The position numbers and the translations under genes are program-made. From positions 5,208,001 through 5,272,000 of the forward strand of contig NZ_CP042806.1 of the NCBI RefSeq assembly GCF_008000815.1: a stretch of DNA of 64,000 nucleotides, given 5' to 3'. Each line of letters opens with the position of its first letter. Position 1 is the first letter of the stretch. The notes beneath the pieces are model-generated. The model was given only the letters and a program-made list of their open reading frames with translations. It ran no database searches and was not told the DNA's origin. Below are positions 38,338 to 53,934 of the stretch, in pieces. This stretch comes from Terriglobus albidus. Lineage in GTDB: Bacteria; Acidobacteriota; Terriglobia; Terriglobales; Acidobacteriaceae.

Positions 38338-38388
38338 CGCGGAGTCCTCCTGCAGATAGGAGCTTACAAAGCCTGTCCTGCCGGCTCA

Positions 38389-38402
38389 GTGATGGATGTC
38401 AC
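38389..38402. promoter_or_regulatory. CRP-type operator shared by divergent Usp and cation ATPase genes
   Basis: GTGATGGATGTCAC has the half-sites GTGA/TCAC spaced by 6. To the right, after 23 bases, comes TAGTAT (38426-38431); to the left, after 22 bases, TAAGCT (38366-38361 on the minus strand). Both are -10-like and sit where class II activation from -41.5 requires. The FNR-like protein at 45952 carries the matching CRP-type recognition helix. Confidence 0.65.
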
Positions 38403-38450
38403 AGGAGGAAGGATGGGAATCCGCCTAGTATCACGATCGGAAGGTGCTGT

Positions 38451-41231
38451 GTGTCCAGATCGATGTACTTCGACAAGAGGGCTCCGCATGCGGAATCCGC
38501 GGAAACAGTACTGCGCCGGCTGCGCACCGATCCCCATTCCGGCCTTTCGACAGTCGAGGCTGATGCCCGCCTCAGTAACGGCAGAAATGAGATTCAGACG
38601 AAACACGCCTACTCGGGCTGGCGGCTCTTTCTCAGACAATTCGCGGATCCGCAGATGTACCTGCTGCTCAGCGCAACGGTTCTGTCGCTCGTGGTTACTT
38701 TGTCGAAGCACGGTGGAGCTCCCTGGGAAGCATTACTGATCTTGTCCGTGGTGTTGTTGAACGCCATCCTCGGTTTCCTGCAGGAGGATCGGGCAGAGAA
38801 GGCGCTTGAACAGCTAAAAGTCATCTCGCCGGCACTTTCGCGTGTAATCCGGGACGGCACAGCGCAGGACGTTCTTTCGGCCACGCTTGTCCCCGGTGAC
38901 ATCCTCCTGCTGGAGGAGGGGAACATCGTGCCTGCCGATGCCCGAATCATTGAAGAAGATGGAATTCAGGTAACTGAGGCTCTCCTCACGGGAGAGAGCC
39001 TCAGCGTCTCGAAACAGCCGGCCCCTCTTCCGCTGACTACGCCCACAGCAGATCGAACCAATATGGTCTTCAGCGGTACCGGCATCCTCTCCGGGCATGC
39101 CAGAGCAGTGGTTGCTTCAACCGGGCCAGACACCGAAGTCGGGCACATCGCCTCCCTGCTGGCCAAAGCGGAGAAGGATGCGACCGCGTTACAGAACCGC
39201 CTCCACGGACTCAGCAAACAGATCGCCATTGGTGTCTTTCTAACTGGGTCGCTCTGCGTAATCACCTTCATTCTCCTTCTCCCTGAAAAGACGTTGGACA
39301 CCCTCATCGAGATTGCTCTCTTTGGAGTCTCTCTTGGAGTTGCAGCAACACCGGAGGCGCTCGGCACACTCGTTACTCTCACTCTTGGCTTCGGCGTACT
39401 ACGGCTCGCCCGGCGTGGCGCGATTGTCAGAAGACTCAACGTGATCGATACTCTGGGCGCGACAACCGTTGTGATGTCTGACAAGACGGGCACGCTGACG
39501 CAGAACCGGATTGAAGTTCATTCCTTCTTCACCGCGGCCGAAACGATCTCATCGCAGTCATCGACCGGACCTATCCACACCGGAAGCCCGATAGAAGCAT
39601 GTCTTCTGAGTGCCGCGCTAGCGAATGCCGCCAATTACGTTCGGGAAGGGACCGCCTTTAAGTTTCATGGTGACCCGGTCGACACTGCCTTGTGGATGGC
39701 CACAACACATCGCGGAGTTTCACCCGATGCCATCGAGGCCAGATTCGTTCGCAAATGGCGATTTCCCTTCACCTCGGAACGCAAGATGCTCAGCGTAGCG
39801 GTACAGGATCGGCATCGACCGGACGCGATATTCCTCTATCTGAAGGGAGCGCCGGAGTCGGTTCTGTCTCGCAGCACGCATGAAATGGCTGGTAAAAGAG
39901 TCACGGAGATCACAGCAACCAGACGAGCCGAGTTGTCGGCCAAAATTGACGCCCTCGCCCTGGAGGGGTGGAAGATCATGGCCCTGGCACGCCGTATTCT
40001 GCCGGTATCAACCGACCAACCCGCAAAACCCGAGCTCGTGGAGAGCGGCCTCACCCTCACCGGTTTCGTCACGTTGTTCGATCCTCCAAGGACGGAGGCG
40101 AGCGAGACCATCCGGCAGATGACCGCCGCCCATATCCGCACAATTCTCGTCAGCGGCGACCACCCTAAAACTGCGGCTGCTATCGCAAGACAACTCGGCA
40201 TCGAGTCTGGCGCCACCGTTCTAACCGGAGCAGAGATTGAGCGATCCAATGATGCTGAGCTCCAACAGCAGCTTCGCGGCACTACCATCTGCGCGAGAGT
40301 CACACCCGCGGATAAACTCAGGGTGGCACAGTTGCTGCAGCGGTCGGGAGAGGTCGTTGCGATGACCGGCGACGGCGTCAATGACGCGCCAGCATTGAAA
40401 GCTGCCGATGTCGGCATCGCAATGGGCAGTGGCACTGAGATCGCCAAAGATGCAGCCGATATTGTCCTTACCGATGACAGCCTTGCGACCATTCTGCACG
40501 CCATCCGCGAAGGCAGAATCATGGCGGCAAATATCCAGAAGGCCGTGATGTACCTCTTCACGACGAACCTGTCTGAGGTCGGCACGATCTTTCTCGCTGC
40601 AGTTGCTTCCATGGCGATGAAGCAGGCTGCACCTGCGGCGCTGCCCCTGACCGCGGCTCAGATTCTATGGCTGAACCTGATGACCGATGTCGCCCCGGCG
40701 ATCGCATTGGCGCTTTCGCCTGCGCGTCCGAACGTGATGGAAGGAAGCGGCCATCGGAACCTTAAACAAATTCTTTCCAAAGGATCGGTGTACCAGATCC
40801 TGGGGAACAGTCTCGCGCTCACTGCCGTCACCCTGGGAGCATTCTTCCTGGTTTCAGGCGACCTGATCCACCGCCGGACCATGACGCTGACGGTCATCGC
40901 GCTTTGCCAGTGCGCCTATGCACTGACGCTGCAGTCAGAATCGGCCAGCATCTTCCGGTATCTTTCTGAACTGCGATGGCTGATACCTGCAATCGCATGG
41001 TCGATTGTCGCGCAAGTACTCATCGTAAGCTTTGCCTTTACGCGTGAGGTCTTCGGCTTGTCACAGCTCAATTGGCAAGATTGGCTGCTATGTTTTCTGG
41101 CGACCTCGTCTGTTCTTGTTCTGAGTGAATGCCGCAAGTTCCTTCTGAGAAGGCAAAGAAAACACAGCAATCTCGGAGTCGAAGGCACGGCTTCGATTCC
41201 CACTTCCCGAGCCACCTCTCATGCGAACTAG
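38451..41231 (+). CDS. P-type cation-transporting ATPase (P2, CtpF/Ca2+-ATPase-like)
   Basis: About 926 residues. A GTG at 38451 is chosen because CGGAAGG stands six bases upstream; ATG 38463 is the alternative. All P-type parts are present: actuator LLTGESLSVSK, phosphorylation D344 in SDKTGTLTQN, hinge MTGDGVNDAPA, and about ten TM helices. The usual PEGL of TM4 is PEAL (AATPEALGTLV), so ion specificity is uncertain, with Ca2+ most likely. It overlaps the AI-2E family gene by 11 bases. Relatives are induced with Usp proteins in the mycobacterial dormancy response, which fits the shared operator. Confidence 0.9.
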   Translation: MSRSMYFDKRAPHAESAETVLRRLRTDPHSGLSTVEADARLSNGRNEIQTKHAYSGWRLFLRQFADPQMYLLLSATVLSLVVTLSKHGGAPWEALLILSVVLLNAILGFLQEDRAEKALEQLKVISPALSRVIRDGTAQDVLSATLVPGDILLLEEGNIVPADARIIEEDGIQVTEALLTGESLSVSKQPAPLPLTTPTADRTNMVFSGTGILSGHARAVVASTGPDTEVGHIASLLAKAEKDATALQNRLHGLSKQIAIGVFLTGSLCVITFILLLPEKTLDTLIEIALFGVSLGVAATPEALGTLVTLTLGFGVLRLARRGAIVRRLNVIDTLGATTVVMSDKTGTLTQNRIEVHSFFTAAETISSQSSTGPIHTGSPIEACLLSAALANAANYVREGTAFKFHGDPVDTALWMATTHRGVSPDAIEARFVRKWRFPFTSERKMLSVAVQDRHRPDAIFLYLKGAPESVLSRSTHEMAGKRVTEITATRRAELSAKIDALALEGWKIMALARRILPVSTDQPAKPELVESGLTLTGFVTLFDPPRTEASETIRQMTAAHIRTILVSGDHPKTAAAIARQLGIESGATVLTGAEIERSNDAELQQQLRGTTICARVTPADKLRVAQLLQRSGEVVAMTGDGVNDAPALKAADVGIAMGSGTEIAKDAADIVLTDDSLATILHAIREGRIMAANIQKAVMYLFTTNLSEVGTIFLAAVASMAMKQAAPAALPLTAAQILWLNLMTDVAPAIALALSPARPNVMEGSGHRNLKQILSKGSVYQILGNSLALTAVTLGAFFLVSGDLIHRRTMTLTVIALCQCAYALTLQSESASIFRYLSELRWLIPAIAWSIVAQVLIVSFAFTREVFGLSQLNWQDWLLCFLATSSVLVLSECRKFLLRRQRKHSNLGVEGTASIPTSRATSHAN

Positions 41232-42282
41232 GTCCAAATCTCACACCGGGAGCAGCGCGATGGTGTTTGCGCTGACAGCAGGGTCTCTATTCCTGTGCGC
41301 TCTATTGTTGAAACCGTTCATCCCCGCTCTCACCGGTTCATTGCTCATTGTCACAATGACCCAACCGCTTGCGAAGCGGCTCAGACAGATCTTCTCGCAC
41401 CGTACAACCGCGGCAGCCGTGGCGACCGTCATTGTCGCCCTATGCATTATTGTGCCCGCTGCATTCATTCTGCGTATGGTAGCGATGCAGGCGCTGGGCG
41501 GACTACAGCTTCTTCAGGACGCGGCCTGGCTCGATAAATTACAGCATCTTATCGATCAAATAAGGTCCTATCTCTCCCTGCGTGGAATCCCTCTCATGGG
41601 AAACGACCTCCCGCAGATCATCAAGACCGGCGCTGGTTTTTTGGGATCGACCTTTCTTACGCTCGTCTCTGGATCGGTCGAAGCCTTTACCCAGATCGTC
41701 GTCATGCTGTGTCTACTCTTCTTCTGGTATCGCGATTCCGACGACTTGTTAGCCCATCTGCGCAAAACCTCTCCCCTCAACTCCGGCGAGGAACGGCTTT
41801 TCGTGAAATATTTCAAGCGGACGATCCGGGCAAGTGTCGTCGGCAGGCTCTGGATCGCCGCCATTCAGGGGTTTCTTGCATGGATCGCATTCGCCGCCCT
41901 CGGCGTGCCGGGAGCGGTTCTCCTGGCTAACCTTACCTCGGTCTGCGCTCTGATCCCCGCCTTCGGTGCATTTCTTGTATGGCTGCCGGTTGTCGGTTAT
42001 CTTCTGGCGATCCACGCGTGGACGAGAGCAGTGATCCTCTTCACCATCGGCTTCTTCCTCCTGAGCACCGTCGACAATCTTCTGTACCCATTTTTCGTCG
42101 GCGCACGAGCGCACCTGCACACCGCAAAGATGTTGCTATCGGTCTTTGGGGGGCTTTGGCTTTTCGGCATCAGCGGCCTGGTCCTTGGGCCGCTCGTGTG
42201 GGTAACAACTGAGCTGCTCGTCGCAATCTGTATGCGGCGGGCCTCTAGAGATGAATCGCGCAACGCCGGAGATACCTTATGA
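41221..42282 (+). CDS. AI-2E family (UPF0118) membrane transporter
   Basis: 353 residues with about eight hydrophobic helices, the standard length and topology of the family. The paired helices near the N-terminus (FLCALLLKPFIPALTGSLLI) and the C-terminal segment STVDNLLYPFFVGARAHLHT followed by LLSVFGGLWLFGISGLVLGP are diagnostic. Members export autoinducer-2 or act as Na+/H+ antiporters; nothing here decides between them. The 11-base overlap with the ATPase gene implies co-translation and a joint role in ion balance. Confidence 0.88.
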   Translation: MRTRSKSHTGSSAMVFALTAGSLFLCALLLKPFIPALTGSLLIVTMTQPLAKRLRQIFSHRTTAAAVATVIVALCIIVPAAFILRMVAMQALGGLQLLQDAAWLDKLQHLIDQIRSYLSLRGIPLMGNDLPQIIKTGAGFLGSTFLTLVSGSVEAFTQIVVMLCLLFFWYRDSDDLLAHLRKTSPLNSGEERLFVKYFKRTIRASVVGRLWIAAIQGFLAWIAFAALGVPGAVLLANLTSVCALIPAFGAFLVWLPVVGYLLAIHAWTRAVILFTIGFFLLSTVDNLLYPFFVGARAHLHTAKMLLSVFGGLWLFGISGLVLGPLVWVTTELLVAICMRRASRDESRNAGDTL

Positions 42283-42312: not shown

Positions 42313-43950
42313 ATGAACACCAGGTCTGGAGCGCTTGAAAACCCGGCGTTACACTTGTATCCACTGTCCATGGATAAGACGCCTAAAAGTAGCGGTACCC
42401 CCATCCCAGCAACCTGGGTCGATCCTGAACGCTGGCTCGCAGCGATTGTCGAATCATCCGATACGGCAATTATGGGCGAATCGCTCGACGGCATGATTAC
42501 AAGCTGGAATCGCGCGGCCGTCCAGATGTTCGGATATTCAGCCGAAGAAGCGATCGGTAAACCGGTCTTCTTTCTTGCATGGCCCGGCGAAGACGAGAGA
42601 ATGCATGAACTCCTCCGCATCGTGCGGAACGGTGAGCGCATTGATGGATTCGAGACAGCGCGCAGACACAAGGACGGCTCACAGGTCTTTGTCTCTCTCA
42701 GCATGTTTCCCGTTAAGGATGCTGACGGGACGATCGTAGGTATCGCCGAGATTGCCCGGAATATTACCGACCGCAGACTGGCCGAGGAGCAGATTGCGCG
42801 CTCTCATGCGGAAGTGCTTGCAGAACGCAAGTTCCGGGAGATGATCGAGGAGGCTCCTGATGCAATCCTCGAAGTGAATCAGACCGGGTACATCGTGATC
42901 GCCAATAAGACCTCCGAGACACTTTTCGGGTACACACGCGAGGAGTTGCTCGGCCAGCCGGTCGAGATTCTTGTGCCGATGCCCCATCGGGGCAATCATG
43001 CTGATAATGTCGCGAGGTTTGTACGGAGCGGCAAGACCCGTCCCATGGGACAGGGACTGGACCTGAATGCGCGGCGAAAGGACGGATCGGAGTTTCCTGT
43101 CGAGATCAGCCTGAGCCCTATCAGAAGCGCGCAGGAGGTTCTGATCGTTGTCGTCATCCGTGACGTATCGGAACGCCGTAAAGCCGAGCAGCAGCTGCGC
43201 GCGCTCCAGGAGGGTTACTTCAATGAGCTAGTGGCCCGCCAGCATGAGGCGGAGCGTCTGAATCGCCTGAAGAGCGAGTTCATGGCAAGCGTAAGCCACG
43301 AACTGCGAACTCCATTGCATACGATCATCGGGTTTACCGACCTTCTAAAAGAAGAGAGCAACGGGACTCTGAACGCGAAGCAAACCCGGTTTGTCGAGCA
43401 TATCCAGCGGGATTCAGAGCATTTACTCGCCTTAATTAACGACGTGCTGGATCTCAGCCGTATTGAAGCCGGCGGACTTTCCCTGCAGACCGAACAGATC
43501 GACGTTACCGATCTGCTCCATCAGACAACGGAGTCAGTGCGAGGCCAGGCGGCTGCTAAAGGAATCATCCTTCAAACAGAGTACGAGGCGGACCTCTACG
43601 CCTCAGCAGACCGAACCCGGGTACGGCAGGTCCTCTTAAATCTCCTCAGCAATGCAATCAAGTTCACCCCTGCCGGCGGATCGGTAACCATCACAACCGC
43701 CATCGAGGATGAATGGATCCGAATCTCAGTCCGTGACACTGGAATCGGCATCGCACCTGAGGAACATGAGCTGATCTTCGATAAGTTCTATCAAGCCGCC
43801 GTTACCACCGGCGGCGTAAAAGAAGGAACTGGCCTGGGTCTGACCATTAGCCGGCAAATCGTGATGATGCACGGGGGACGGCTGGAGGTGAACAGTACCG
43901 AGGGAGCTGGAAGCGAATTTACCTTCACATTGCCACAATGGGTCCAGTGA
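42313..43950 (+). CDS. Soluble hybrid-free histidine kinase with two PAS domains
   Basis: 545 residues, no membrane helix, so it senses a cytoplasmic signal. PAS 1 covers about 40-155 (SSDTAIMGESLDGMITSWNR) and PAS 2 about 170-290 (APDAILEVNQTGYIVIANKT). A short coiled segment precedes the HisKA box SVSHELRTPLH with H329. The ATPase domain has NLLSNAIKFTP (N box), DTGIGI (G1) and GTGLGL (G2). No haem-binding histidine is evident by eye. It is followed by a single-domain response regulator and faces an NtrC-type gene, its likely partners. Confidence 0.93.
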   Translation: MNTRSGALENPALHLYPLSMDKTPKSSGTPIPATWVDPERWLAAIVESSDTAIMGESLDGMITSWNRAAVQMFGYSAEEAIGKPVFFLAWPGEDERMHELLRIVRNGERIDGFETARRHKDGSQVFVSLSMFPVKDADGTIVGIAEIARNITDRRLAEEQIARSHAEVLAERKFREMIEEAPDAILEVNQTGYIVIANKTSETLFGYTREELLGQPVEILVPMPHRGNHADNVARFVRSGKTRPMGQGLDLNARRKDGSEFPVEISLSPIRSAQEVLIVVVIRDVSERRKAEQQLRALQEGYFNELVARQHEAERLNRLKSEFMASVSHELRTPLHTIIGFTDLLKEESNGTLNAKQTRFVEHIQRDSEHLLALINDVLDLSRIEAGGLSLQTEQIDVTDLLHQTTESVRGQAAAKGIILQTEYEADLYASADRTRVRQVLLNLLSNAIKFTPAGGSVTITTAIEDEWIRISVRDTGIGIAPEEHELIFDKFYQAAVTTGGVKEGTGLGLTISRQIVMMHGGRLEVNSTEGAGSEFTFTLPQWVQ

Positions 43951-43988
43951 TTTGCATCACTGCTGCCCTTCGGCCTGCATCATAGACT
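43945..43988 (+). promoter_or_regulatory. CRP-type class II promoter of the single-domain response regulator
   Basis: CAGTGATTTGCATCACTG (43945-43962) is a perfect 7+7 palindrome that includes the kinase stop codon. After its 14-base core (ends 43960) come 22 bases and then TAGACT at 43983-43988, the exact class II spacing. Confidence 0.65.
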
Positions 43989-44033: not shown

Positions 44034-44393
44034 GTGAAGTGTCTGATAGCCGATGATGCAGACGGCGCAAGAGAGCTGCTTCGGTATGTTCTCGAAGGCC
44101 AGGAAATCGAAGTGATCGAAGCCCGCGACGGTCAGGAGGCCATTGATCTGGCTCTTGAGCATACGCCGGATTTCGTCATCCTCGATATCGGAATGCCCAA
44201 AGTTGATGGCTTCGGAGTTGTTTCAGCACTACGCGGTATGCAGATTTTCAACGCCACCCCAATTCTGGCACTCACGGCAGCCAGTGGTGACTTGAACCGC
44301 CGCGACTTCGAAAAAGCCGGGTTTACCGCGTGGCTTCCGAAACCCATTCGGCCGGCCATTATCCGGCAGGCGCTCGCGGATTTCACCTGCTGA
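44034..44393 (+). CDS. Single-domain (CheY-like) response regulator
   Basis: About 120 residues from GTG 44034, chosen because GAGGTG lies seven bases before it; GTG 44025 overlaps that site. The receiver is complete: acidic pair in IADDADGA, phospho-acceptor D51 in VILDIGMPKVDG, T in LALTAAS and K103 in LPKPI. There is no output domain, so it acts by protein contact or as a phosphate relay or sink. It lies 83 bases after the PAS kinase and has its own CRP-type promoter. Its 3' end overlaps the convergent NtrC-type gene by 11 bases. Confidence 0.9.
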   Translation: MKCLIADDADGARELLRYVLEGQEIEVIEARDGQEAIDLALEHTPDFVILDIGMPKVDGFGVVSALRGMQIFNATPILALTAASGDLNRRDFEKAGFTAWLPKPIRPAIIRQALADFTC

Positions 44394-45759
44394 GTGCAGG
44401 GCGGGAACCGAGCCCGTATTTTTTCATCTTGTATCGCAGGGCGTCCCGTCCAATGCCCAGCTTGCGGGCGGCCTCAGATTGATTCCAGTTTGTCTCGCGC
44501 AATATCCGCTCCACCACAGCACGTTCCTGACTATCGAGCACAGAAGCTCCCGGATCGTCTACAGCCCCGGCAAGCGCCTCACTGGAAGCACCGACAATGT
44601 TCTCAGAAAGATCTTTCACGTCGATCGTCACATTGTCTGTAAGCATGCAGGCGCGTCCAACCACGTGTTCAAGCTCACGGACATTTCCTGGCCACGAATA
44701 CCGTTCCAGGACACGGAGAGCTCGCTGTGAGATGCCTTCCACCTTCTTTCCGAAGTCGCCGGCGAACCTTCGCAGAAAGAACGAAGACAGCAGAGAAATA
44801 TCTTCCTTGCGCGCAGCGAGAGGCGGCAGCGTAAGCTCAACCATCGACAATCGGTAGTAGAAATCTTCGCGAAATCTCCCTTCCTTCACTGCCTGCCGTA
44901 GATTGCGATGGGTCGCGGCTACGATACGAACATTGACGCGCTTTGCATGTAGCGAACCGACCGGCATCACCTCCTGATTCTGAATAGCACGAAGCAATTT
45001 GGCCTGTGTATTGAGTGGCATGTCGCCGATCTCATCCAGAAAGAGGGTGCCGCCGTCAGCTAATTGAAAAAGCCCTGTCTTATCGCGGTCGGCGCCGGTG
45101 AAAGCTCCGCGGACATGACCGAATAGTTCACTTTCGAACAAAGTTTCCACCACGGCAGAGCAGTTAAGAACGACAAATTTACCCTTCAAGCCGCTTCGTT
45201 CGTGGAGCGCCCGGGCAATCAGGTCCTTGCCGGAGCCTGTCGGTCCCTGAATTAACAGCGACCGGAAATGGGGCGCGACTTTCTCCACCATAGCGAAGAG
45301 GTTCCACATCGCCTCGCTTTTGGCGACAAGTCCTTCAAAATGAAAATCCCCGGATTCGTCGCTTCCACTGCTCGCAATCCTTCGTTTTTCGGCGGCTTCC
45401 AAAAGGCGGCGGACACGCTCTCGCAGATCGGCGATCTTGACCGGCTTTTGCAGATAGTCCGCCGCACCGTTGCGGATGGCTTCCACCGCTGTTTCCGTCG
45501 TGTAATGTGCAGTCATCAGCAGCACATCGATGGTGGGGTCGATGTGCATCACCTGCCGCAGGACCTCCAGCCCGGTCATCCCCGGCATGACCAGGTCCGT
45601 AATAACCATGCGCGGGCGAAGCGAGCGTATGAGCTCCAGCCCCTCCCTCGGGTCATTGGCGGTGTGGATCGACAGCCCTTCCCGCTCCAAAGCGGTGCTA
45701 AGCAGCTCGAGGCTGCTCATGTTGTCGTCGATGATGACTATCCGGATAACACCACTCAT
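44383..45759 (-). CDS. NtrC-family sigma-54-dependent response regulator
   Basis: 458 residues with the full NtrC plan. The receiver carries D55 in MVITDLVMPG. The AAA+ domain has Walker A GPTGSGKD (172-179), the sigma-54 contact loop GAFTGA (218-223) and Walker B GGTLFLDEIG. The Fis-type HTH at the end is NQSEAARKLGIGRDALRYKM. It should activate sigma-54 promoters when phosphorylated, probably by the PAS kinase at 42313. A sigma-54-like promoter and an upstream palindrome lie in the divergent gap, in front of the FNR-like gene. Confidence 0.95.
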   Translation of the reverse strand: MSGVIRIVIIDDNMSSLELLSTALEREGLSIHTANDPREGLELIRSLRPRMVITDLVMPGMTGLEVLRQVMHIDPTIDVLLMTAHYTTETAVEAIRNGAADYLQKPVKIADLRERVRRLLEAAEKRRIASSGSDESGDFHFEGLVAKSEAMWNLFAMVEKVAPHFRSLLIQGPTGSGKDLIARALHERSGLKGKFVVLNCSAVVETLFESELFGHVRGAFTGADRDKTGLFQLADGGTLFLDEIGDMPLNTQAKLLRAIQNQEVMPVGSLHAKRVNVRIVAATHRNLRQAVKEGRFREDFYYRLSMVELTLPPLAARKEDISLLSSFFLRRFAGDFGKKVEGISQRALRVLERYSWPGNVRELEHVVGRACMLTDNVTIDVKDLSENIVGASSEALAGAVDDPGASVLDSQERAVVERILRETNWNQSEAARKLGIGRDALRYKMKKYGLGSRPALSR

Positions 45760-45806: not shown

Positions 45807-45824
45807 CTGCGTCAAATGACGCAG
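45807..45824. promoter_or_regulatory. Upstream palindrome, candidate NtrC-type enhancer site
   Basis: CTGCGTCAAATGACGCAG is a perfect 8+8 inverted repeat of the TGC-N10-GCA form, similar to NtrC sites (TGC-N11-GCA). It lies 48 bases before the NtrC-type gene and about 74 bases upstream of the -24 element for the FNR-like gene. Confidence 0.5.
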
Positions 45825-45869
45825 CCTGGGTGGGAAGACGCAGTCCAAATCGGCCGCGCAGGTTGCCAA

Positions 45870-45883
45870 GTGATTGAAATCAC
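45870..45883. promoter_or_regulatory. CRP-type operator in the ntrC/fnr divergent region
   Basis: GTGATTGAAATCAC, inside the longer palindrome AGTGATTGAAATCACT. It lies 68 bases before the FNR-like ATG and 110 bases before the NtrC-type start, just upstream of the sigma-54 element. Autoregulation is likely; activation or repression cannot be told. Confidence 0.6.
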
Positions 45884-45896
45884 TGGACGCTATGTT

Positions 45897-45912
45897 TGGC
45901 ATCACAGGTGCC
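45897..45912 (+). promoter_or_regulatory. Candidate sigma-54 promoter (-24/-12) of the FNR-like gene
   Basis: TTGGCATCACAGGTGCC has GG (45898-45899), ten bases, then GC (45910-45911), the invariant spacing of sigma-54 promoters, within TGGCA and TGC contexts. Predicted transcription starts near 45923, 29 bases before the ATG. Confidence 0.5.
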
Positions 45913-45951: not shown

Positions 45952-46638
45952 ATGTCGAACTGCCAGAACTGCCCCCAAGCCGGAAAACATCCATTTTGTG
46001 GGCTTGGTTCTCAAGCCCGCGCCTTCCTCGACGCGAATTCGACAGTCGTAGATTATCCTCGCGGCGCTTCGCTCTTTCACGAAGGAACCTCCAGCGACTC
46101 CGTTTATATGCTCTGCTCCGGGCGCGTGAAGATCACAGCCAGCTCATCCGAAGGAAAAACGGCAATCCTCCGCATTGCCTCCGCCGGCGACGTCGTCGGA
46201 CTTAGCGCGGCACTTAACAAAACTTCCTATGAGACCAGTGCGGAAGCGATCGAACCCTGCAAGATCAGAATTCTGCAGAACCGGCTGCTGATGCAACTAC
46301 TCACTCAATTTGGCGACGCGTCGATGGCTGCCACAAGCATGATTGCCCAGCACTACCGGGCCGCGTTCCAGGAGATCCGGCGGATCGCCCTTCCTGACAG
46401 TCCGGCGGGCCGCGTTGCACGCCTCATTCTCGACTGGGCGGAGAGCGGACGTACGATGCCGGCGTCGACCATCACAATCCCTTTGACGCATGAGGAGCTG
46501 GCTTCCATGACCGCGACAACACGTGAGACCGTGACTCGCACCCTGAGCCGCTTCCGCAGGGAAAAGCTCATCGCAACCAAAGGAATCTCGCTTACGATTC
46601 TGCAGCCCGCCCAGCTCCGGCAACTCTGTGCATGCTGA
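45952..46638 (+). CDS. CRP/FNR-family regulator with FNR-like cysteines and CRP-like DNA-recognition helix
   Basis: 228 residues from ATG 45952 (AAGGAG upstream). The N-terminus MSNCQNCPQAGKHPFC gives C4, C7 and C16, and C103 in EPCKIRIL aligns with the central cysteine of FNR; together they could hold a [4Fe-4S] cluster. The cyclic-nucleotide-like barrel spans about 25-130. The C-terminal HTH reads THEELASMTATTRETVTRTL: R191, E192 and R196 match the CRP residues that read GTGA, where FNR has V-E-x-x-S-R for TTGA. Five GTGA/TCAC sites nearby fit. The spacing C-x2-C-x8-C is longer than E. coli FNR (C-x2-C-x5-C), so cluster binding is inference. Confidence 0.88.
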   Translation: MSNCQNCPQAGKHPFCGLGSQARAFLDANSTVVDYPRGASLFHEGTSSDSVYMLCSGRVKITASSSEGKTAILRIASAGDVVGLSAALNKTSYETSAEAIEPCKIRILQNRLLMQLLTQFGDASMAATSMIAQHYRAAFQEIRRIALPDSPAGRVARLILDWAESGRTMPASTITIPLTHEELASMTATTRETVTRTLSRFRREKLIATKGISLTILQPAQLRQLCAC

Positions 46639-48230
46639 CGGAACGCGAGAAAGCAGATTCAAACCGGGTTATGCTCTTCCGGATTTTGCCAATTCTGGTT
46701 TGCCTGCTCCTGCCGGCGGCGAAAAGTGCCACTGCCTCCTGCGTACCTAACCTCACGCTTTCACTGCCCATCCAGCAGGAGCTGGTACACGGACTGGTAG
46801 CGGACACGCCTGTCGCCGCCTTCTACCGGCGATGCCAGTTTGCCCTGGCATGGAATCAGGGGGGACATCCCACCGTTCAGGCCCGGACACTTGCGGCTCA
46901 GATACAACGAGCACCTGAATATGGACTCAGGACCGCGGACTATCCACTGCCCACAAACGTTACCGTACCGGACCAGTTTGATGTGGAGTTCACAGCCGCG
47001 GTGCTTCGCTTTGCCCACGATCTTCGATGTGGCCGGCTCACACCTGCACGAGCTAAAGCCGATATCGCTGACACCTGCACGGGCTTCGATCTCATCGGAT
47101 TTGTCTGGAATCTTGCCTGTTCGGACCAACCTGCGATGCAGATCGAAAGTCTGGAACCGGACGCACCTGGATATCGGCGAACCAAGGCTGCACTGCAACT
47201 GCTCCTTCAGAGAAGTGGCGTCAGCGTTGCTCTTTTGCCTCCGTTCTCTCGCACACTGGCTGCCGACGACACCCCCTCACTCCGAACAGCCCTTCTGCAA
47301 AGAATGACTCTGGAACTCGGCGACTTTGCTGAAGGTGCAGCCGCAGCCACTCCCTCCCTCTTTTCAGTGGCAATGCAGACCTACCAGGAACAGCACGGCC
47401 TCGCTACGACCGGCAAACTCGATCAACCGACATATACGGCGCTCTCCATCCCACTGTCGGAACGGGTGGAACAACTCGGCCTGACCCTCGAACGGTGGCG
47501 GTGGACAGCGCGGTCCTTCGATCGTCCTCCAATCGTGGTTAACATTCCTGAGTTCCGCCTCCGTGCCTACGATGACCGCATGAATATCCGTTTCTCGATG
47601 AAGGTCATCGTCGGAGGCGCATATCGGCGGCAGACACCGGTCTTTGAAAACAGAATCGCCGCGGTCGAGTTTCGCCCATACTGGAACGTTCCTCCGAGTA
47701 TTCAGCGCAATGAGATTCTTCCTGCGGAAAAACGCAGCCCGGGATATCTGGCAAGGCACAACTTCGAAGTTGTGCGTAGCCCGAACGGATCCACTCGGAT
47801 CCGTCAACGTCCCGGCGAAGAAAATGCCCTTGGACTCATCAAGTTCTCGCTGCCGAATGTTCACAACGTCTATCTGCACGACACGCCCAAGCCTGAATTA
47901 TTCGAGAGAGTTCGCCGCGATTTCAGCCATGGGTGTATTCGCATTGAAAAACCGGATGAGCTGGCTGTCTGGGTTCTGCGCGACCAGGATAACTGGCCCC
48001 TGCAGCGGGTACAGGATGCGATGCACGGAAATACCAGTTTTTCGGTGAAGCTGTCGCAATCAATTCCGATTCTGATTGTTTATGGAACGGGCTTCGCGGC
48101 GGAGAATGGACGAGTTTACTTTCTCAACGATCTTTACGGCGAAGATAAGAGACTGATCCATCTTCTCCAGGATGTAACCGATCAACGTTTGGCGGAGAAT
48201 TCCACTCTCTCGGCGATATTTGCCATGTGA
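46632..48230 (+). CDS. L,D-transpeptidase, YcbB/LdtD-like
   Basis: 532 residues from ATG 46632, which overlaps the FNR-like stop by 7 bases; ATG 46671 would give a more compact signal peptide (MLFRILPILVCLLLPAAKSA). A peptidoglycan-binding-like domain (about 235-290, QTYQEQHGLATTGKLDQPTY) precedes the YkuD catalytic domain. The active cysteine is C435 in SHGCIRIEKPDEL, with the histidine of YLHDTPKPELF before it. It makes 3-3 cross-links in peptidoglycan, a form associated with stationary or stressed cells. Coupling to the FNR-like gene suggests wall remodelling under the same signal. Confidence 0.92.
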   Translation: MLTEREKADSNRVMLFRILPILVCLLLPAAKSATASCVPNLTLSLPIQQELVHGLVADTPVAAFYRRCQFALAWNQGGHPTVQARTLAAQIQRAPEYGLRTADYPLPTNVTVPDQFDVEFTAAVLRFAHDLRCGRLTPARAKADIADTCTGFDLIGFVWNLACSDQPAMQIESLEPDAPGYRRTKAALQLLLQRSGVSVALLPPFSRTLAADDTPSLRTALLQRMTLELGDFAEGAAAATPSLFSVAMQTYQEQHGLATTGKLDQPTYTALSIPLSERVEQLGLTLERWRWTARSFDRPPIVVNIPEFRLRAYDDRMNIRFSMKVIVGGAYRRQTPVFENRIAAVEFRPYWNVPPSIQRNEILPAEKRSPGYLARHNFEVVRSPNGSTRIRQRPGEENALGLIKFSLPNVHNVYLHDTPKPELFERVRRDFSHGCIRIEKPDELAVWVLRDQDNWPLQRVQDAMHGNTSFSVKLSQSIPILIVYGTGFAAENGRVYFLNDLYGEDKRLIHLLQDVTDQRLAENSTLSAIFAM

Positions 48231-48239
48231 CAAACCAAC

Positions 48240-50753
48240 ATGACAGAAACAGACATCGAACACGAGTGGGCAGGCTTAACCAGCGCTGAAGCCGAGACAC
48301 GCCTCGCACAGTATGGATTCAACGAGCCTGCAGGAGAGAAACAGCAGCATTGGGTTCTCCAGTTCCTCAAACTCTTCCTGCAGCCTCTCCCGCTCATTCT
48401 GCTGATAGCAGCTTGTATCTCTTCATTTATCGGACAATTGCTGGATGCTTCCATCATCGCCGTAATGGTCACGGCAAGCGCCATTGTTGACTTCTACCAG
48501 ACATATCGATCCCAGGTCTCCATGGAAAAATTGCGCCGGCTGGTCGCACCGACGGGGACGGTCCTGCGCGATGGAGCGTGGGTTGAGCTGGATCGCCGAA
48601 ACATTGTTCCAGGAGATGTAGTTAGGATGGCTGCCGGTGACCTGGTTCCCGCCGACTGCACGTTACTGGAAGTCTGTAATCTCTACGTGCAGGAGGCCGT
48701 CCTCACAGGCGAGTCGCTGCCTTCAGTAAAGGCAGCGGCATCCGACACCCGGAATAAACGACTCAATCAGGTTTATCTCGGGACCTCGATCGCGAGCGGG
48801 TCAGCCATCGCCTCTGTTGTAAAGACCGGGGCTGCCACTGAGTTTGGCGAAATAGCGCAACAATTGTCGGCAACGCAGGAAGAGACTGATTTTGATCGGG
48901 GCCTGCGGCAGTTTGCCCTGCTCATCAGCCGGGTTGTCCTCTTCCTCGTACTGTTTGTCTTGCTCGCGAATCTAGCCGTTCATCGCAGCGCTTTTGAGTC
49001 ACTGCTCTTTGCCGTAGCCCTTGCGGTCGGGTTAACACCCGAGCTGCTTCCAGTACTCACGTCCATCACCCTGGCAAAGGCAGCGATACAGTTGGCGCAG
49101 AAAGATGTGATCGTAAAGCACCTCTCCGCCATTCAGAATCTGGGAAGTATCGACATTCTTTGCAGTGACAAGACCGGCACACTCACTCTCGGCGAGATGC
49201 ATGTCTTTCAATCGCTTGACTACAGCGGAGTAGAAGCTCCGGAGCCGTTGCGCACCGCGAAGCTTAACAGCCTGTTTGAGGCAGGTGTTCATAGCCCGCT
49301 GGACGCAGCGATTCTGGAGGCGCCGCCCCCCGCCGGCGAGGCAGCAACAAACGAAGACTGGGAGAAGCTTGACGAGCTCCCCTTCGATTTCGAGCGCCGT
49401 CGCCTGTCGATCGTCCTCAGCAATCGTCAAGAGATCCGCCTCATCTGCAAAGGAGCCCCGGAGGGTCTACTTCCGCTCTGCACAAGCGTGGGCGTAGCAG
49501 GACATCCAGTCCCCTTAACTCCCGAGGCGCGAAAGACTGCAGAACGGACCCTCGTGAGACTGGCAGACGATGGCCTCCGGGTCCTCGCTGTCGCAGAACG
49601 AGGAATACCATCGAAGCCTCATTACGTCCCCTCCGACGAGTGCGATCTTACACTGGTCGGTTTCCTTACCTTCACAGATCCGGTCCGCCCGGACGCTGCA
49701 GGCGCCATTCAGGAACTCGCCGAAGATGGCGTCGCCGTAAAGATCATCACCGGTGACAACGCGGATGTCGCAAAACATCTATGTCAACAAATTGATTTCG
49801 ATACAGGTGAGGTTCTCCTTGGAGACGATCTGGATCGCATGACCGATACGGCTCTCGCCATCCGGGCCGAAAAGTCGAACCTTTTTGCTCGTGTCTCACC
49901 CGCCCAAAAAAGCCGCATCCTCCGGGCGCTCCGCTCGCGAGGCCACGTGGTGGGGTTCATCGGGGACGGAATCAATGATGCGCCTTCCCTCCGCGCTGCA
50001 GACATTGGAATTGCCGCTCCTCACGCCGTCGACGTAGCCCGGGCTGCCGCTGACATCATTCTCCTCACCCCCGGTTACAGCATTCTGCACCAGGGAATCA
50101 GGTCAGGGCGCAACGCCTTCGGCAACGTCATGAAATACCTCATGATGGGCACCAGTTCCAACTTCGGCAACGTATTAAGCATGGCCGTCGCAGCCGTCAT
50201 GCTGCCCTTCCTCCCCATGTCTCCTACCCAGGTATTGTTGAATAATTTCCTCTACGACATGTCCCAGATCCCAATCCCCACTGATAACGTAGATCCGGAA
50301 TACTCCGCTGTTCCGCGGTCATGGGATATGACATTAATCCGCCGCTTCATGCTGCTGGCCGGTCCTATCAGCTCTATCTTCGATGTCGTGACCTTCTATG
50401 TGCTTCTGCACTTCATGCATGCAGGTGAAACAGAGTTTCACACGGGCTGGTTCATCGAATCTCTGTTTACCCAGATCATGGTGCTGCTTGTCATCAGAAC
50501 TACCAAGGCTCCCTGGAGGAGCCGGCCGAGCCGGCCGTTGGCGATCAGCATGCTCGCAGTTCTGGTCATTGGATTTCTACTGCCGGTATCCCCTGCCGCT
50601 GGGTATCTAGGTTTTACGCCACTCCCGGGGGGATATTATCTCTTTCTGCTGGTGACGATTACGCTCTATCTGGGCATGGTCGAAGCCGCAAAGCGCTGGC
50701 TGCTCGCTCCGGCATCGCGGCGTCTGCCGCGAGCTGCAGTCTCTCAGGCCTGA
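48240..50753 (+). CDS. mgtA: P-type Mg2+-transporting ATPase, MgtA-like (P3B)
   Basis: 837 residues, about 60 shorter than enterobacterial MgtA, mainly at the N-terminus. Phospho-acceptor D310 lies in DILCSDKTGTLT, preceded by VGLTPELLPVLTSITLAKAA and IVKHLSAIQNLG, and the hinge is FIGDGINDAPSLRAADIGIA. The C-terminal block NNFLYDMSQIPIPTDNVDPE and then GPISSIFDVVTFYVLL is typical of the Mg2+ branch and separates it from Ca2+ pumps. It starts 9 bases after the transpeptidase gene, so it is in the fnr-ldt-mgtA operon. It converges on a decayed phosphotransacetylase. Confidence 0.9.
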   Translation: MTETDIEHEWAGLTSAEAETRLAQYGFNEPAGEKQQHWVLQFLKLFLQPLPLILLIAACISSFIGQLLDASIIAVMVTASAIVDFYQTYRSQVSMEKLRRLVAPTGTVLRDGAWVELDRRNIVPGDVVRMAAGDLVPADCTLLEVCNLYVQEAVLTGESLPSVKAAASDTRNKRLNQVYLGTSIASGSAIASVVKTGAATEFGEIAQQLSATQEETDFDRGLRQFALLISRVVLFLVLFVLLANLAVHRSAFESLLFAVALAVGLTPELLPVLTSITLAKAAIQLAQKDVIVKHLSAIQNLGSIDILCSDKTGTLTLGEMHVFQSLDYSGVEAPEPLRTAKLNSLFEAGVHSPLDAAILEAPPPAGEAATNEDWEKLDELPFDFERRRLSIVLSNRQEIRLICKGAPEGLLPLCTSVGVAGHPVPLTPEARKTAERTLVRLADDGLRVLAVAERGIPSKPHYVPSDECDLTLVGFLTFTDPVRPDAAGAIQELAEDGVAVKIITGDNADVAKHLCQQIDFDTGEVLLGDDLDRMTDTALAIRAEKSNLFARVSPAQKSRILRALRSRGHVVGFIGDGINDAPSLRAADIGIAAPHAVDVARAAADIILLTPGYSILHQGIRSGRNAFGNVMKYLMMGTSSNFGNVLSMAVAAVMLPFLPMSPTQVLLNNFLYDMSQIPIPTDNVDPEYSAVPRSWDMTLIRRFMLLAGPISSIFDVVTFYVLLHFMHAGETEFHTGWFIESLFTQIMVLLVIRTTKAPWRSRPSRPLAISMLAVLVIGFLLPVSPAAGYLGFTPLPGGYYLFLLVTITLYLGMVEAAKRWLLAPASRRLPRAAVSQA

Positions 50754-50754
50754 C

Positions 50755-51213
50755 AGTTCGAGGTGGCGCGACGAGGATTGATGCCTGTGTCTGCCTGTCA
50801 CCATACCCGATTCGTCAGCAAGGACTGCATGCATGAAAGCATCGGTATGCAGACTTCCTTTCATCAGGGCTTCCGCTTCATCCCGGTGGCACCAACTCAC
50901 ATGCGAGAGCTGCCGCGCTCTCCGGGGTGTCGGCTTCGATGATTGCGAGGTCTTCCTCGTCGACTGATAGCTGAGCTGCCAGTTTCCGCAATGTGCAGCG
51001 AGGACCTATGAGTAATGGGCGGATCAGGCGTCTTCGCTCCGCCTCTAACGCTCCAGCCAGCGCCTCGAGACTGCAGGGCCAGCAGACCGCCATCGATAGA
51101 GGTTCCCGTTCCTGCGCACAGCGCAGGATTCTATCGAAGAAAACCGAGGTTGGAGAGAGCAACTCCGTAGTATTCATATACGCCATGTAGGATCGACCTC
51201 CTGCGATATTCAT
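50755..51213 (-). pseudogene. Phosphotransacetylase remnant, frameshifted and 3'-truncated
   Basis: The first frame (51213-50878) reads FFDRILRCAQEREPLSMAVC, then LEALAGALEAERRRLIRPLL and IGPRCTLRKLAAQL, the N-terminal part of Pta/Ptb-like enzymes, and stops after ACELVPPG. One base over, the next frame continues RDEAEALMKGSLHTDAFMHA, the family's well-known internal motif, so about one extra base near 50885 broke the gene. Homology then fades before the MgtA stop, and the catalytic C-terminal half (another 150-200 residues) is missing. It overlaps the alcohol dehydrogenase stop by ATGA (51210-51213). Confidence 0.75.
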
Positions 51214-52247
51214 TGTTCGCTGGAGGCAATTTCCATGACGATACGGCCATCGATCTTACCTGCCTTCATTTGATCGAAGATGTTGTTGATGTCTTCGAGT
51301 GCTGCGGTCTTATAGGTAGCCTCGACCCTGCCCTCCGCGGCAAAGCTCAGGCTCTCGGCCAGATCGCTGCGAGTGCCTACGATGGAGCCGCGCAATGTCT
51401 TTCGATTGAGCACCAGGTCAAAGATCGATACCGGAAAATCCCCCGGCGGCAGGCCGGTGAGAGACATGATTCCCTTCCGTCTGAGCAGGCTCGTCGCAAA
51501 CGAGAAGGCCTTTGGAGAGACCGCGGTAACGAGCACACCATGTGCTCCTCCGCCGGTTGCATCGATGATGCGCTCCGCGGCGCCTTCCGATCCTGCGTTG
51601 ATCGCAAAATCAGCGCCCAGCTTCATCGCCAGATTCAGCTTGTCCTCGGCGACGTCAACCGCGGCAACATGTAACCCCATTGCTTTGGCATACTGCACTG
51701 CCATGTGACCCAACCCGCCAATGCCGGAGATCACCACCCACTGTCCAGGACGGGTCTCCGTTTCTTTCAGCCCCTTGTAAACCGTCACACCGGCGCAAAG
51801 AATTGGGGCAATGGAATTGAAGTCTATATTCGCCGGAAGATGAGCTGTGTAGCCTGGGTCAACGAGAACATATTCAGCGAAGCTTCCATTCACCGAATAG
51901 CCGGTATTCTTTTGCTGTTTGCAGAGAGTCTCCCATCCAGTCAGACAGAACTCACAGGCGCCACAGGCACTATGGAGCCAGGGAACGCCTACACGGTCGC
52001 CTTCTTTTACCGTTTTGACTCCGGCGCCCACTTTCACAATGACACCAGCGCCTTCGTGGCCAGGGATAAATGGAGGAGCAGGCTTAACAGGCCAATCGCC
52101 CATAGCGGCATGCAGATCGGTGTGACATACTCCCGTCGACATGACTTTCATCAACGCCTGTCCGGGACCGACCTCCGGTACCTGAACCTCTCGGATGTCA
52201 AGCGGCTTTCCAAACTCAGTGACGACCGCTGCTTTCATCTTTGCCAT
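51210..52247 (-). CDS. adhP: Zinc-dependent alcohol dehydrogenase, AdhP type
   Basis: 345 residues. Catalytic zinc ligands are C41 and H64/E65 (GVCHTDLH, PGHEGAG) with C151; the structural zinc site is C95, C98, C101 and C109 (CGACEFCLTGWETLC). The NAD loop GIGGLG lies at 175-180. It interconverts primary alcohols and aldehydes with NAD(H) and can oxidise or form ethanol under low oxygen. It was in an operon with the now broken phosphotransacetylase, an arrangement seen in fermentative stress clusters. No clear CRP-type site lies in its own upstream gap (52248-52405). Confidence 0.93.
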   Translation of the reverse strand: MAKMKAAVVTEFGKPLDIREVQVPEVGPGQALMKVMSTGVCHTDLHAAMGDWPVKPAPPFIPGHEGAGVIVKVGAGVKTVKEGDRVGVPWLHSACGACEFCLTGWETLCKQQKNTGYSVNGSFAEYVLVDPGYTAHLPANIDFNSIAPILCAGVTVYKGLKETETRPGQWVVISGIGGLGHMAVQYAKAMGLHVAAVDVAEDKLNLAMKLGADFAINAGSEGAAERIIDATGGGAHGVLVTAVSPKAFSFATSLLRRKGIMSLTGLPPGDFPVSIFDLVLNRKTLRGSIVGTRSDLAESLSFAAEGRVEATYKTAALEDINNIFDQMKAGKIDGRIVMEIASSEQ

Positions 52248-52405: not shown

Positions 52406-52834
52406 TCAATGGCCTTTATGGTGGGCATGTGCGGCCGGCTGGCTCTTTTCCATGTGTAGCCGATCGCCGGTTGGGCGGGAGTTCCAGATCCGCCGCGCTA
52501 CTTCTATTGCATTCGATGCATTCTCCCGTGGATGCCGGCTTTCAGCAGCTACCCGGGGAGTTCTGTTGTTCGCTGGTGCCGGTTGCCAATACCAGGGCGT
52601 GTGCTGTGATGGTATGTGCTCCGGCATCACATATTCCGATATCTCTATGCGGGGCTGCACCTGTTCCCCAGTAGGACGCCAGCACTGAACCACATACTTC
52701 GGTGTGCAAGCACTACAGAACCAGATCATCTTTTTTGTCATCCGCTCTTCTTTGGCCGTATCAACAATTTGTAGAGTGCCAGACTGCAGGAACTTCTCCT
52801 GAGCGTCACACCCGGGAATCGCGCATTTCAGCAT
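52406..52834 (-). CDS. Small protein with zinc-ribbon-like cysteines, unknown function
   Basis: 142 residues, not recognised. The N-terminal half has C4 and C9 (KCAIPGC), and then WFCSACTPKYVVQCW, a four-cysteine pattern that could bind zinc. The C-terminal half is polar and His/Pro-rich, ending HAHHKGH. It is supported by the ribosome site GGAGAGGAGGA before ATG 52834 and by a CRP-type site exactly 48 bases upstream, as for the stress genes. The opposite-strand frame has neither. It may be a small regulator or metal-binding protein of the island. Confidence 0.55.
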   Translation of the reverse strand: MLKCAIPGCDAQEKFLQSGTLQIVDTAKEERMTKKMIWFCSACTPKYVVQCWRPTGEQVQPRIEISEYVMPEHIPSQHTPWYWQPAPANNRTPRVAAESRHPRENASNAIEVARRIWNSRPTGDRLHMEKSQPAAHAHHKGH

Positions 52835-52882
52835 GGTCTCCTCCTCTCCATGAGAGCGTTACAGCAGTTGCCGGCAGAGGCA

Positions 52883-52955
52883 GTGATGGAGGTCACAGAC
52901 CTCGATGGAGGTCACAGAGACCTCGATGGAGGTCACAGACCTCGATGGAGGTCAC
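52883..52955 (-). promoter_or_regulatory. CRP-type operator followed by three tandem derivative repeats
   Basis: GTGATGGAGGTCAC (52883-52896) is a full site 48 bases from the zinc-ribbon gene start. The unit GACCTCGATGGAGGTCAC is then repeated three times; the TCAC half-sites begin at 52893, 52912, 52933 and 52952, that is 19, 21 and 19 bases apart. The repeats keep one half-site each and form a second inverted pair GACCTC/GAGGTC. Confidence 0.65.
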
Positions 52956-52961
52956 GGCCCC

Positions 52962-53870
52962 TTACGCCGGAGCCCCTTCTCCCAGGCGTCCATTGACGAC
53001 AAGGATCGGGCACTCCGCATCGTGAATCAGCTTGCTCAATGTGCGCCAGGCTGCGTGATCTCCGAGGGCGCCGTTATGCCGACATCCGGTTAAGATGAGT
53101 TCGGTGCCGCCCAGGTTTGCCGCTCGAAGAATGCGCGGCGCCGCCTGGCCATGATCCACTTGCACGTGTGCCTTGAAGTACATAGCGGCATCGCGAGGCA
53201 GAAGATGCATCAAACGCTCTTCCAAATCTTTGCGAAGCTCCCGCTGAGGCGGACCGACACGATTCACAACATGCATCACGGTAAGCGTCGCCTGCATCGT
53301 CTTCCCCAGAGCGGCGGCATACTGTGCGGCTCGCAACGAACCGAGCTCAAGATCCGCTGCGAACAGGATCGACTGCAGTGAATCGACTCGCCTGGCGTTG
53401 GGACCAACAATCAACACGGGGCATGGCGCCCGGCGAATAAGAGATTCCGCTGAGGAGCCGAACAGCAGCTTATCCAGCCCCTGCGCTCCCCGCGAGCCTG
53501 CAACCACCAGATCGACATGATGCGACCGCACCACCTGTTCGACCTGCAGATCGAGCGGCCCTTCTTCGACACGCGTCATACATGGAATGCGGGCGAGATC
53601 GGGAATCGATTCGACCTCCCGCGCCATCGCCGTTTGAGCCGCTGCCATAGCCGCCTGCCGTGCTTCCATTCCGAGGACGTCGCCATACCGCACCTCCATG
53701 GACGGTAACGCATGCAGCACAAAGATCTCCCCGGCGAACAGCGTGGCCAACCGTACGGCATCCACCAGGGCCATATGCGCCTGTGCCGAAAAGTCAGTCG
53801 TCACGAGTATTCGGCGAAATGAGACGGGAGTTGTCTCCAGGTGGGCTGAGTCGAGGATCATAGTGGCCAT
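52962..53870 (-). CDS. Universal stress protein, two UspA domains
   Basis: 302 residues. Domain 1 (about 18-155) carries the ATP-binding loop GSRGAQGLDKLLFGSSAE; domain 2 (about 160-302) has TGCRHNGALGDHAAWRTLSK and ends CPILVVNG. ATG 53870 is preferred, with AGGAGG ten bases upstream; ATG 53861 is possible. It is a different subfamily from the Usp at 37477. Its CRP-type site lies 50 bases upstream. Likely role is survival under energy or oxygen limitation. Confidence 0.92.
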   Translation of the reverse strand: MATMILDSAHLETTPVSFRRILVTTDFSAQAHMALVDAVRLATLFAGEIFVLHALPSMEVRYGDVLGMEARQAAMAAAQTAMAREVESIPDLARIPCMTRVEEGPLDLQVEQVVRSHHVDLVVAGSRGAQGLDKLLFGSSAESLIRRAPCPVLIVGPNARRVDSLQSILFAADLELGSLRAAQYAAALGKTMQATLTVMHVVNRVGPPQRELRKDLEERLMHLLPRDAAMYFKAHVQVDHGQAAPRILRAANLGGTELILTGCRHNGALGDHAAWRTLSKLIHDAECPILVVNGRLGEGAPA

Positions 53871-53920
53871 GGCAGAGGAACCTCCTGCCCTTATGGTGTG
53901 GAATGAGGATAAATTCTGCG

Positions 53921-53934
53921 GTGACGCCCGTCAC
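53921..53934 (-). promoter_or_regulatory. CRP-type operator of the second universal stress protein
   Basis: GTGACGCCCGTCAC, a perfect 5+5 palindrome with N4 centre. After 22 bases towards the gene comes CACCAT, a weak -10 match with A2, A5 and T6 conserved. Confidence 0.6.

Follow-up and report, generated by a model that had tools for sequence, protein, structure and literature searches.

The window is a stretch of 64,000 nucleotides (positions 5208001 to 5272000) from the 6.41-Mb single-contig genome of Terriglobus albidus. It contains a 15.5-kb island with genes for universal stress proteins (Usp), P-type ATPases, a two-component system, and a CRP/FNR-family regulator. To judge from its sequence features, the island is probably the central part of a regulon for low-oxygen stress in the Acidobacteriaceae, controlled by the CRP/FNR-family protein that it encodes. 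An initial annotation, made from the DNA letters, had described a local CRP/FNR regulon with palindromic sites at one fixed distance from -10-like hexamers. That interpretation is right in outline. It errs on the promoter at 45870 and describes the protein imprecisely.

Six copies of GTGA-N6-TCAC are present in the window (38389, 42031, 43947, 45870, 52883, and 53921). Shuffled windows held a mean of 1.15, and none of 100 shuffles reached six. All but 42031 had been reported in the initial annotation, and the scan found these five as placed. They had been assigned to gene starts, which agrees with the open reading frames (ORFs): four are wholly intergenic, and 43947 begins in, and so overlaps, the kinase stop codon. 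The site at 42031 lies within the ORF of an AI-2E transporter and departs from the refined motif GTGAYNNNNRTCAC, which fits the other five. Because 94.5% of the region is coding, the placement of five of six sites at gene boundaries is improbable by chance (P ~3e-6). The whole genome contains 115 exact GTGA-N6-TCAC matches versus 42 with the reversed pattern. It contains 31 copies of GTGAYNNNNRTCAC versus 10 with the reversed control. Five of the 31 lie inside the island, where 0.06 is expected (P ~8e-9, uncorrected for the choice of place). The regulon is local in that the sites cluster in the island with the regulator gene, which is present there as had been claimed, but sites also occur elsewhere in the genome, in a second, small island and at other genes.

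The sites and hexamers of the island promoters were as follows.

38361 to 38366, minus strand: -10-like hexamer TAAGCT for Usp1 at offset 22; relatives have TACGCT at 23.
38389 to 38402, no strand: CRP-type site GTGATGGATGTCAC from the window scan, common to the divergent genes for Usp1 (minus) and a P-type ATPase (plus); kept upstream of Usp1 in loci L031 and L033.
38426 to 38431, plus strand: -10-like hexamer TAGTAT for the P-type ATPase at offset 23, as re-measured.
43947 to 43960, plus strand: CRP-type site GTGATTTGCATCAC between the kinase and the response regulator; a site is found in 13 of 13 orthologous islands.
43983 to 43988, plus strand: -10-like hexamer TAGACT for the response regulator at offset 22; TANNNT at 22/23 in 13 of 13.
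52883 to 52896, minus strand: CRP-type site GTGATGGAGGTCAC from the window scan, for the zinc-ribbon gene, with AACGCT at 22 (52855 to 52860).
53921 to 53934, minus strand: CRP-type site GTGACGCCCGTCAC for Usp2, with weak CACCAT at 22 (53893 to 53898); kept in L031 and L033.

Re-measurement reproduced the hexamers and the spacing of 22 to 23 bases that had been given for these five promoters. Three have TANNNT, and two have a weaker hexamer (AACGCT and CACCAT), as had also been said. These two are weak in the two closest relatives (L031 and L033) as well, with the spacing kept. The relatives have GACCAT and CACCAT for Usp2. For the zinc-ribbon promoter, L031 retains the site with AAGGCT, and L033 has the one-mismatch site GTGACCTCCATTAC. 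The Usp1 and Usp2 sites, and with that mismatch the zinc-ribbon site, are retained in both. Four gaps of 48 to 51 bases from site to start codon had been claimed. Three hold, for Usp1 (51), zinc-ribbon (48), and Usp2 (50). The ATPase gap is 48 only if GTG 38451 is the start and 60 with ATG 38463. The gaps are 73 for the response regulator and 68 for the regulator gene.

The spacing had been chosen after the sequence was seen, and it was therefore tested on loci outside the original reading. Both strands of each site were used, and TANNNT was counted at offsets 0 to 79. The first set (15 loci, 41 sites) contained 8 TANNNT at offset 22 and 6 at 23, with a mean of 0.56 and a maximum of 4 at the 78 other offsets. 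The second set (13 other loci, 33 sites) contained 11 at offset 22 and 7 at 23, with a mean of 0.24 and a maximum of 3 at the others; in both sets the loci are related to one another, and the counts are not fully independent. The test left out L073, L074, L080, L081, and L089 (copies of loci in the first set, or closely related to them), L084, L086, L087, and L092 (no site), L031, L033, and L036 (near relatives), and sites less than 90 bases from a locus end. A tally of 73 sites in homologous loci (60 fitting, control 1) includes duplicate loci and was not used as a test. The next TANNNT peak was at offset 44. It fits tandem sites 22 bp apart, and four such pairs were found (L061 5413/5435, L068 8935/8957, and L070 10894/10916 and 14820/14842). 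By their positions, these pairs would set two dimers, two turns apart, at -41.5 and -63.5.

The composite GTGAYNNNNRTCAC-N22/23-TANNCT had 524 matches in 124 of 150 Acidobacteriaceae genomes. The reversed composite had 7 across the same 150. Regulator homologs (E at most 1e-20) were present in 128 of the 150. Genomes with a homolog contained 4.0 composite sites on average (n = 128), and genomes without one contained 0.5 (n = 22). The number of composite sites rises with regulator copy number (rank correlation, rho 0.66).

The response-regulator promoter was compared in 13 islands from Terriglobus, Granulicella, Bryocella, and other Acidobacteriaceae. These have the order kinase, receiver, NtrC-type gene, and regulator, on contigs that span it. 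The gap between kinase and receiver contains GTGA-N6-TCAC in all 13. It is followed by TANNNT at offset 22 in 12 and at 23 in 1, and the hexamer is TANNCT in 11 of 13. The class II (-41.5) geometry of the initial annotation was thus found in unseen loci, across the family, and at the receiver promoter. It does not apply to site 45870, which has a sigma-54 promoter instead.

The regulator is the following feature.

45952 to 46638, plus strand: CRP/FNR-family regulator with C4, C7, C16, and C55 and a CRP-type helix R191-E192-R196 (Pfam, alignment, and model).

It matches Pfam PF00027, PF13545, and PF00325 over cut-off, with a cyclic nucleotide monophosphate-binding-type beta-roll and a Crp-type helix-turn-helix. 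It passes no NCBIfam equivalog cut-off. The AlphaFold2 model (predicted local distance difference test score, 89) matches CRP and FNR structures. Foldseek aligned it to Aliivibrio fischeri holo-FNR with a template modelling score of 0.87 to 0.88. The best Protein Data Bank match by sequence is Mycobacterium tuberculosis CRP. The closest named relative by this protein is Terriglobus albidus DSM 26559, with 87% identity. Neither RedB nor the anammox CRP/FNR paper, in the portions available, gave a match to the regulator family.

The protein had been called FNR-like. It does belong to the CRP/FNR superfamily, but its helix is of the CRP type and its cysteine set is unlike that of Escherichia coli FNR. 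The recognition helix is RE[TS][VT][TS]R in 30 of 30 homologs. R191, E192, and R196 are the equivalents of R180, E181, and R185 of E. coli CRP, which has the same R-E-x-x-x-R helix. The GTGA-type sites fit this helix. E. coli FNR has the recognition helix E-x-x-S-R and TTGAT-N4-ATCAA sites, and it has V in place of R at the first position. C4, C7, C16, and C55 are invariant in all 30 homologs. C4 and C7 align with two cysteines of E. coli FNR. C16 and C55 align with F and R (C55 with the R72 region, not C122). C103 lies three columns before C122 of E. coli FNR and is cysteine in 19 of 30 homologs. Recognition helix and cysteine positions set the protein apart from a classical FNR. The cyclic AMP (cAMP) contacts of CRP are G71, E72, R82, and S83. 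The homologs keep only G71; E72 is opposite a gap, H or Y takes the place of R82, and E that of S83. The lack of these contacts argues against a cAMP-dependent CRP. A C-terminal cysteine, C228, is kept in 14 of 22 acidobacterial alignment rows, mostly those of close orthologs.

The promoter of the regulator gene is of a different kind. It contained the following elements.

45808 to 45823, no strand: dyad TGCGTCAAATGACGCA, a possible enhancer for the NtrC-type protein; a related dyad is found in 13 of 13 islands.
45827 to 45842, no strand: second, poorer dyad TGGGTGGGAAGACGCA, from the intergenic alignment.
45870 to 45883, plus strand: CRP-type site GTGATTGAAATCAC, with the sigma-54 start about 45 bp downstream; 6 of 13 islands have an exact copy.
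45895 to 45911, plus strand: sigma-54 -24/-12 promoter TTTGGCATCACAGGTGC (GG-N10-GC), in 13 of 13 islands.

All 13 aligned intergenic regions between the NtrC-type and regulator genes contain TTTGG-N10-GC, a -24/-12 sigma-54 element. It is a GG-N10-GC with TTGG and TTGC context, and the window copy has 9 of 12 consensus letters. Matches of that quality number 14 in the window versus 16 in shuffles. As a single match the element is not rare, so the case rests on its conservation. The genome contains rpoN. In the window, neither strand has a hexamer 22/23 bases from site 45870. The site was rejected as a class II site for the regulator or the NtrC-type gene, the sigma-54 element standing there instead. 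In the 7 islands without an exact copy, the site is at the same place with one or two mismatches, counted by eye. Exact copies start 25 to 26 bases ahead of the sigma-54 element, with the center near -45. Further upstream of the sigma-54 promoter, each of the 13 islands has at least one dyad of the form TGSGY-N6-..SCA, and 7 have two. The tandem dyads at 45808 to 45842 resemble the enhancers of NtrC-type proteins and likely serve the product of the divergent NtrC-type gene. Upstream of distant regulator homologs, 20 stretches were scanned, and most contained no sigma-54 element, so the cascade is claimed for the islands of close orthologs. One strong match (11/12) was found upstream of the homolog in L124.

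In genome G084, the regulator ORF has a near-perfect sigma-54 element, TTGGCACAGCAATTGCC, some 300 bp ahead of it (about 8654 of L124). A CRP-type site at 8605 precedes the element.

Low-oxygen function was examined through G084, which we take to be Acidobacterium capsulatum ATCC 51196. Its regulator homolog adjoins a PAS/sigma-54 activator. Three usp genes are nearby, and a fourth, elsewhere, is preceded by a composite site. The cydA gene has a site 35 bp before its ORF, with TAGGTT at 22. A multihaem cytochrome gene near the regulator homolog has TAGGAT at 23. In this 19-kb locus, two of five sites have the spacing towards a gene. Elsewhere, another composite site lies ahead of a NiFe hydrogenase large-subunit gene and is separated from it by one ORF. 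The available portion of the A. capsulatum transcriptome text reports that cydAB was raised when O2 fell from 10 to 0.1 uM (PMC11636273). At 0.1 uM O2, it gives increases of 7- and 56-fold for two usp genes, 84-fold for a histidine kinase, and up to 14.9-fold for adhP (PMC11636273). That portion names no CRP/FNR regulator and has 0 matches to "crp".

These features suggest a circuit. The PAS kinase would signal to the NtrC-type regulator. This protein would in turn switch on the sigma-54 promoter of the gene for the CRP/FNR-family regulator. The latter may be active at low oxygen, owing to an Fe-S cluster bound by its cysteines or to some other thiol switch. It would bind GTGA-N6-TCAC at -41.5 with its CRP-type helix. 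As a class II activator, it would then turn on usp1, usp2, and the genes for the ATPase, the receiver, and the zinc-ribbon protein. Activation of the receiver may serve as feedback on the kinase pathway. Most likely, the regulator restrains its own gene from the -45 site at the sigma-54 promoter. That this feedback is negative and not positive is a guess, made from the position of the site and its weaker form in 7 of 13 islands. We tentatively consider that the regulator may belong to a separate CRP/FNR branch, widespread in the Acidobacteriaceae, although the odds are slightly against it. This branch would join a cysteine sensor, whose ligands would be a new set (C-x2-C-x8-C and C55 of the beta-roll instead of C122 of FNR), to CRP-type GTGA recognition. 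Its gene would be under sigma-54 and NtrC-type control, with a feedback site fixed at -45. The protein may act as a master switch for low-oxygen survival in the family.

Several results weigh against a class II low-oxygen regulon under this protein. Two of the five island promoters have the weak hexamers AACGCT and CACCAT. In the spacing test, aside from the spacing hits, 21 of 41 and 12 of 33 sites lacked TANNNT at 22/23 on both strands or did not face a gene; a class II promoter is not present at every site. The initial annotation had proposed a genome scan for the composite GTGA-N6-TCAC-N22/23-TANNNT. The exact composite occurs 8 times in the genome versus 3 for the control; three of the 8 lie in the island, and the total is low. 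Outside the island, 46 site-strands contained 3 TANNNT at offset 22, 1 at 23, and 2 at 21, a weak peak. The strength of the spacing claim comes from sequence comparison with the relatives. The rank correlation between regulator copy number and composite sites is uncorrected for relatedness or genome size. The fold changes in A. capsulatum could not be matched to particular G084 genes. The fourth cysteine is not at the E. coli FNR position, and three cysteines plus one are no proof of a cluster.

The owner of the sites also has to be weighed. The genome encodes four HTH_Crp_2 proteins over cut-off, and R-E-x-x-x-R is found only in the regulator and in a paralog at 1812476 to 1813144, so the sites belong to the regulator, the paralog, or both. 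The remaining two have the helices RRSTVT and TRSRVS. The sites could thus be real and of class II and yet be bound by the paralog or by both proteins, the island being one target of a wider CRP/FNR network. We consider this unlikely. The paralog does have the same N-terminal cysteines and the helix RETTSR and could share or own the sites, which is a further point against our preferred reading, and many family genomes contain 2 to 8 regulator homologs. However, the sites crowd near the regulator, the sole site near the paralog is 1810416, and the same sites accompany close orthologs of the regulator.

A cAMP-CRP regulon for catabolite control, rather than an oxygen regulon, is very improbable. 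GTGA-N6-TCAC is the core of the CRP site, the regulator has the CRP-like helix, and its closest solved structures by sequence and fold include CRPs. The 30 homologs, however, keep one cAMP contact of four, CRP has no N-terminal cysteines where the regulator has three plus C55, and the targets are usp, bd oxidase, AdhP, and kinase genes. That the palindromes and spacings reflect chance or motif-shopping we regard as scarcely credible. Pattern and spacing were indeed picked from the sequence already in view, two hexamers are poor, and about a third of the 115 genomic sites are background. The spacing nevertheless peaked at exactly 22/23 in both sets of previously unseen loci, the composite had 524 matches against 7 for its control, and the receiver promoter is kept in 13 of 13 islands. 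The offset test, the shuffles, and the reversed controls reject chance sites.

The proposed regulon under the island's own regulator resembles several known systems in part. It is like FNR of E. coli and Aliivibrio in the CRP/FNR fold, N-terminal cysteines, low-oxygen gene types, and class II geometry. It differs in that FNR has TTGAT-type sites and the matching helix, whereas the regulator is of the GTGA type and has C55 as a fourth invariant cysteine. CRP of E. coli and M. tuberculosis has the same R-E-x-x-x-R helix and GTGA-N6-TCAC site. It differs from the regulator, which has cysteines and no cAMP contacts, and the gene set is not one of carbon catabolism. HcpR is a family of CRP/FNR relatives with GTGA-N6-TCAC-type sites. 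Its targets are nitrosative stress genes, and it is set apart here by description, not by sequence. In FixLJ-FixK2 of Bradyrhizobium, a two-component system stands above the CRP/FNR protein FixK2. The likeness is in this arrangement, as given in the available portion of one source (PMC9104804). Here the upstream step is instead an NtrC-type protein with a sigma-54 promoter.

NmpRSTU of Myxococcus xanthus resembles the island in its NtrC-like response regulator, its sigma-54 promoters, its targets (usp and P-type ATPase genes), and its link to hypoxia, which for the island is proposed (PMC11841059, available portion). In that portion, "CRP" is absent and "FNR" occurs once. NmpU is a globin kinase (PMC11841059), whereas the island kinase has PAS domains. 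The kinase at 42313 to 43950 had no globin match in Pfam; kinases elsewhere in the genome were not searched. The NmpR consensus GCGCA-N5-TGCGC was perfect in 2 of 13 islands. The window matched at 6 of 10 positions, no better than chance, and the consensus was at or below chance in the window, L073, and L074. These counts speak, at most weakly, against an orthologous NmpR system. The lxa (low-oxygen-activated) locus of Burkholderia cenocepacia is likewise a usp-rich island and is induced at low oxygen. It is from another phylum and, from the portion of its description available, is likened by gene content, not by regulator or promoter design. No account of this regulon was found in the accessible portions of the literature searched. 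Acidobacteria are abundant in soil, where oxygen fluctuates. With a motif legible in any genome of the family, an identified family of regulators, and a proposed circuit in layers (two-component system, sigma-54, CRP/FNR protein, and class II promoters), the acidobacterial oxygen response can be tested directly. Should the cysteine set hold a cluster, it would be a second way of sensing oxygen with this fold, combined with DNA reading of the CRP type.

The other genes of the island were as follows.

37477 to 38337, minus strand: Usp1, two-domain universal stress protein (Pfam Usp).
38451 to 41231, plus strand: P-type cation ATPase, start GTG 38451 or ATG 38463 (Pfam; NCBIfam subfamily ATPase_P-type over cut-off).
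41221 to 42282, plus strand: AI-2E family transporter, with the coding site 42031 (Pfam).
42313 to 43950, plus strand: PAS-PAS histidine kinase (Pfam).
44034 to 44393, plus strand: single-domain response regulator (Pfam).
44383 to 45759, minus strand: NtrC-type sigma-54 activator with a receiver domain (Pfam Response_reg, Sigma54_activat, and HTH_8).
46632 to 48230, plus strand: L,D-transpeptidase (Pfam YkuD), with no site in front.
48240 to 50753, plus strand: Mg-type P-type ATPase (NCBIfam TIGR01524 over cut-off).
51210 to 52247, minus strand: AdhP-type alcohol dehydrogenase (NCBIfam NF006940 over cut-off).
52406 to 52834, minus strand: small Cys-rich protein, zinc-ribbon-like by eye, with no Pfam or NCBIfam match.
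52962 to 53870, minus strand: Usp2, two-domain universal stress protein (Pfam).

The L,D-transpeptidase gene is possibly in one transcript with the regulator gene. The second group of sites in the genome (about 2927600 to 2931500) contains three sites with genes for a Usp, a CBS protein, a phosphoribosyltransferase, and a PAS kinase. Its hexamers at 22 to 23 (locus L037, 2924000 to 2936000) are TAGTGT, GAATAT, and GATACT. A multihaem cytochrome gene and an Hsp20 gene also have sites, 145 bp and 87 bp upstream, respectively.

A 19-bp tandem array of half-site-like units lies beside the zinc-ribbon site (52885 to 52955, no strand). Its units are GTGAYCTCCATYGAGRTC, and the inner dyad arms co-vary (ACCTC..GAGGT and ATCTC..GAGAT). 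It contains 3.6 copies in the window, 7.6 in T. albidus (L031, 11867 to 12011), and fewer in L033. In E. coli K-12, the annotated record (L038) has uspE directly adjoining fnr. The complete genome of Terriglobus roseus DSM 18391 contains the whole island twice, 460 kb apart (L034/L035 and L080/L081), with matching gene coordinates and identities. This is either a large duplication or a matter of assembly.

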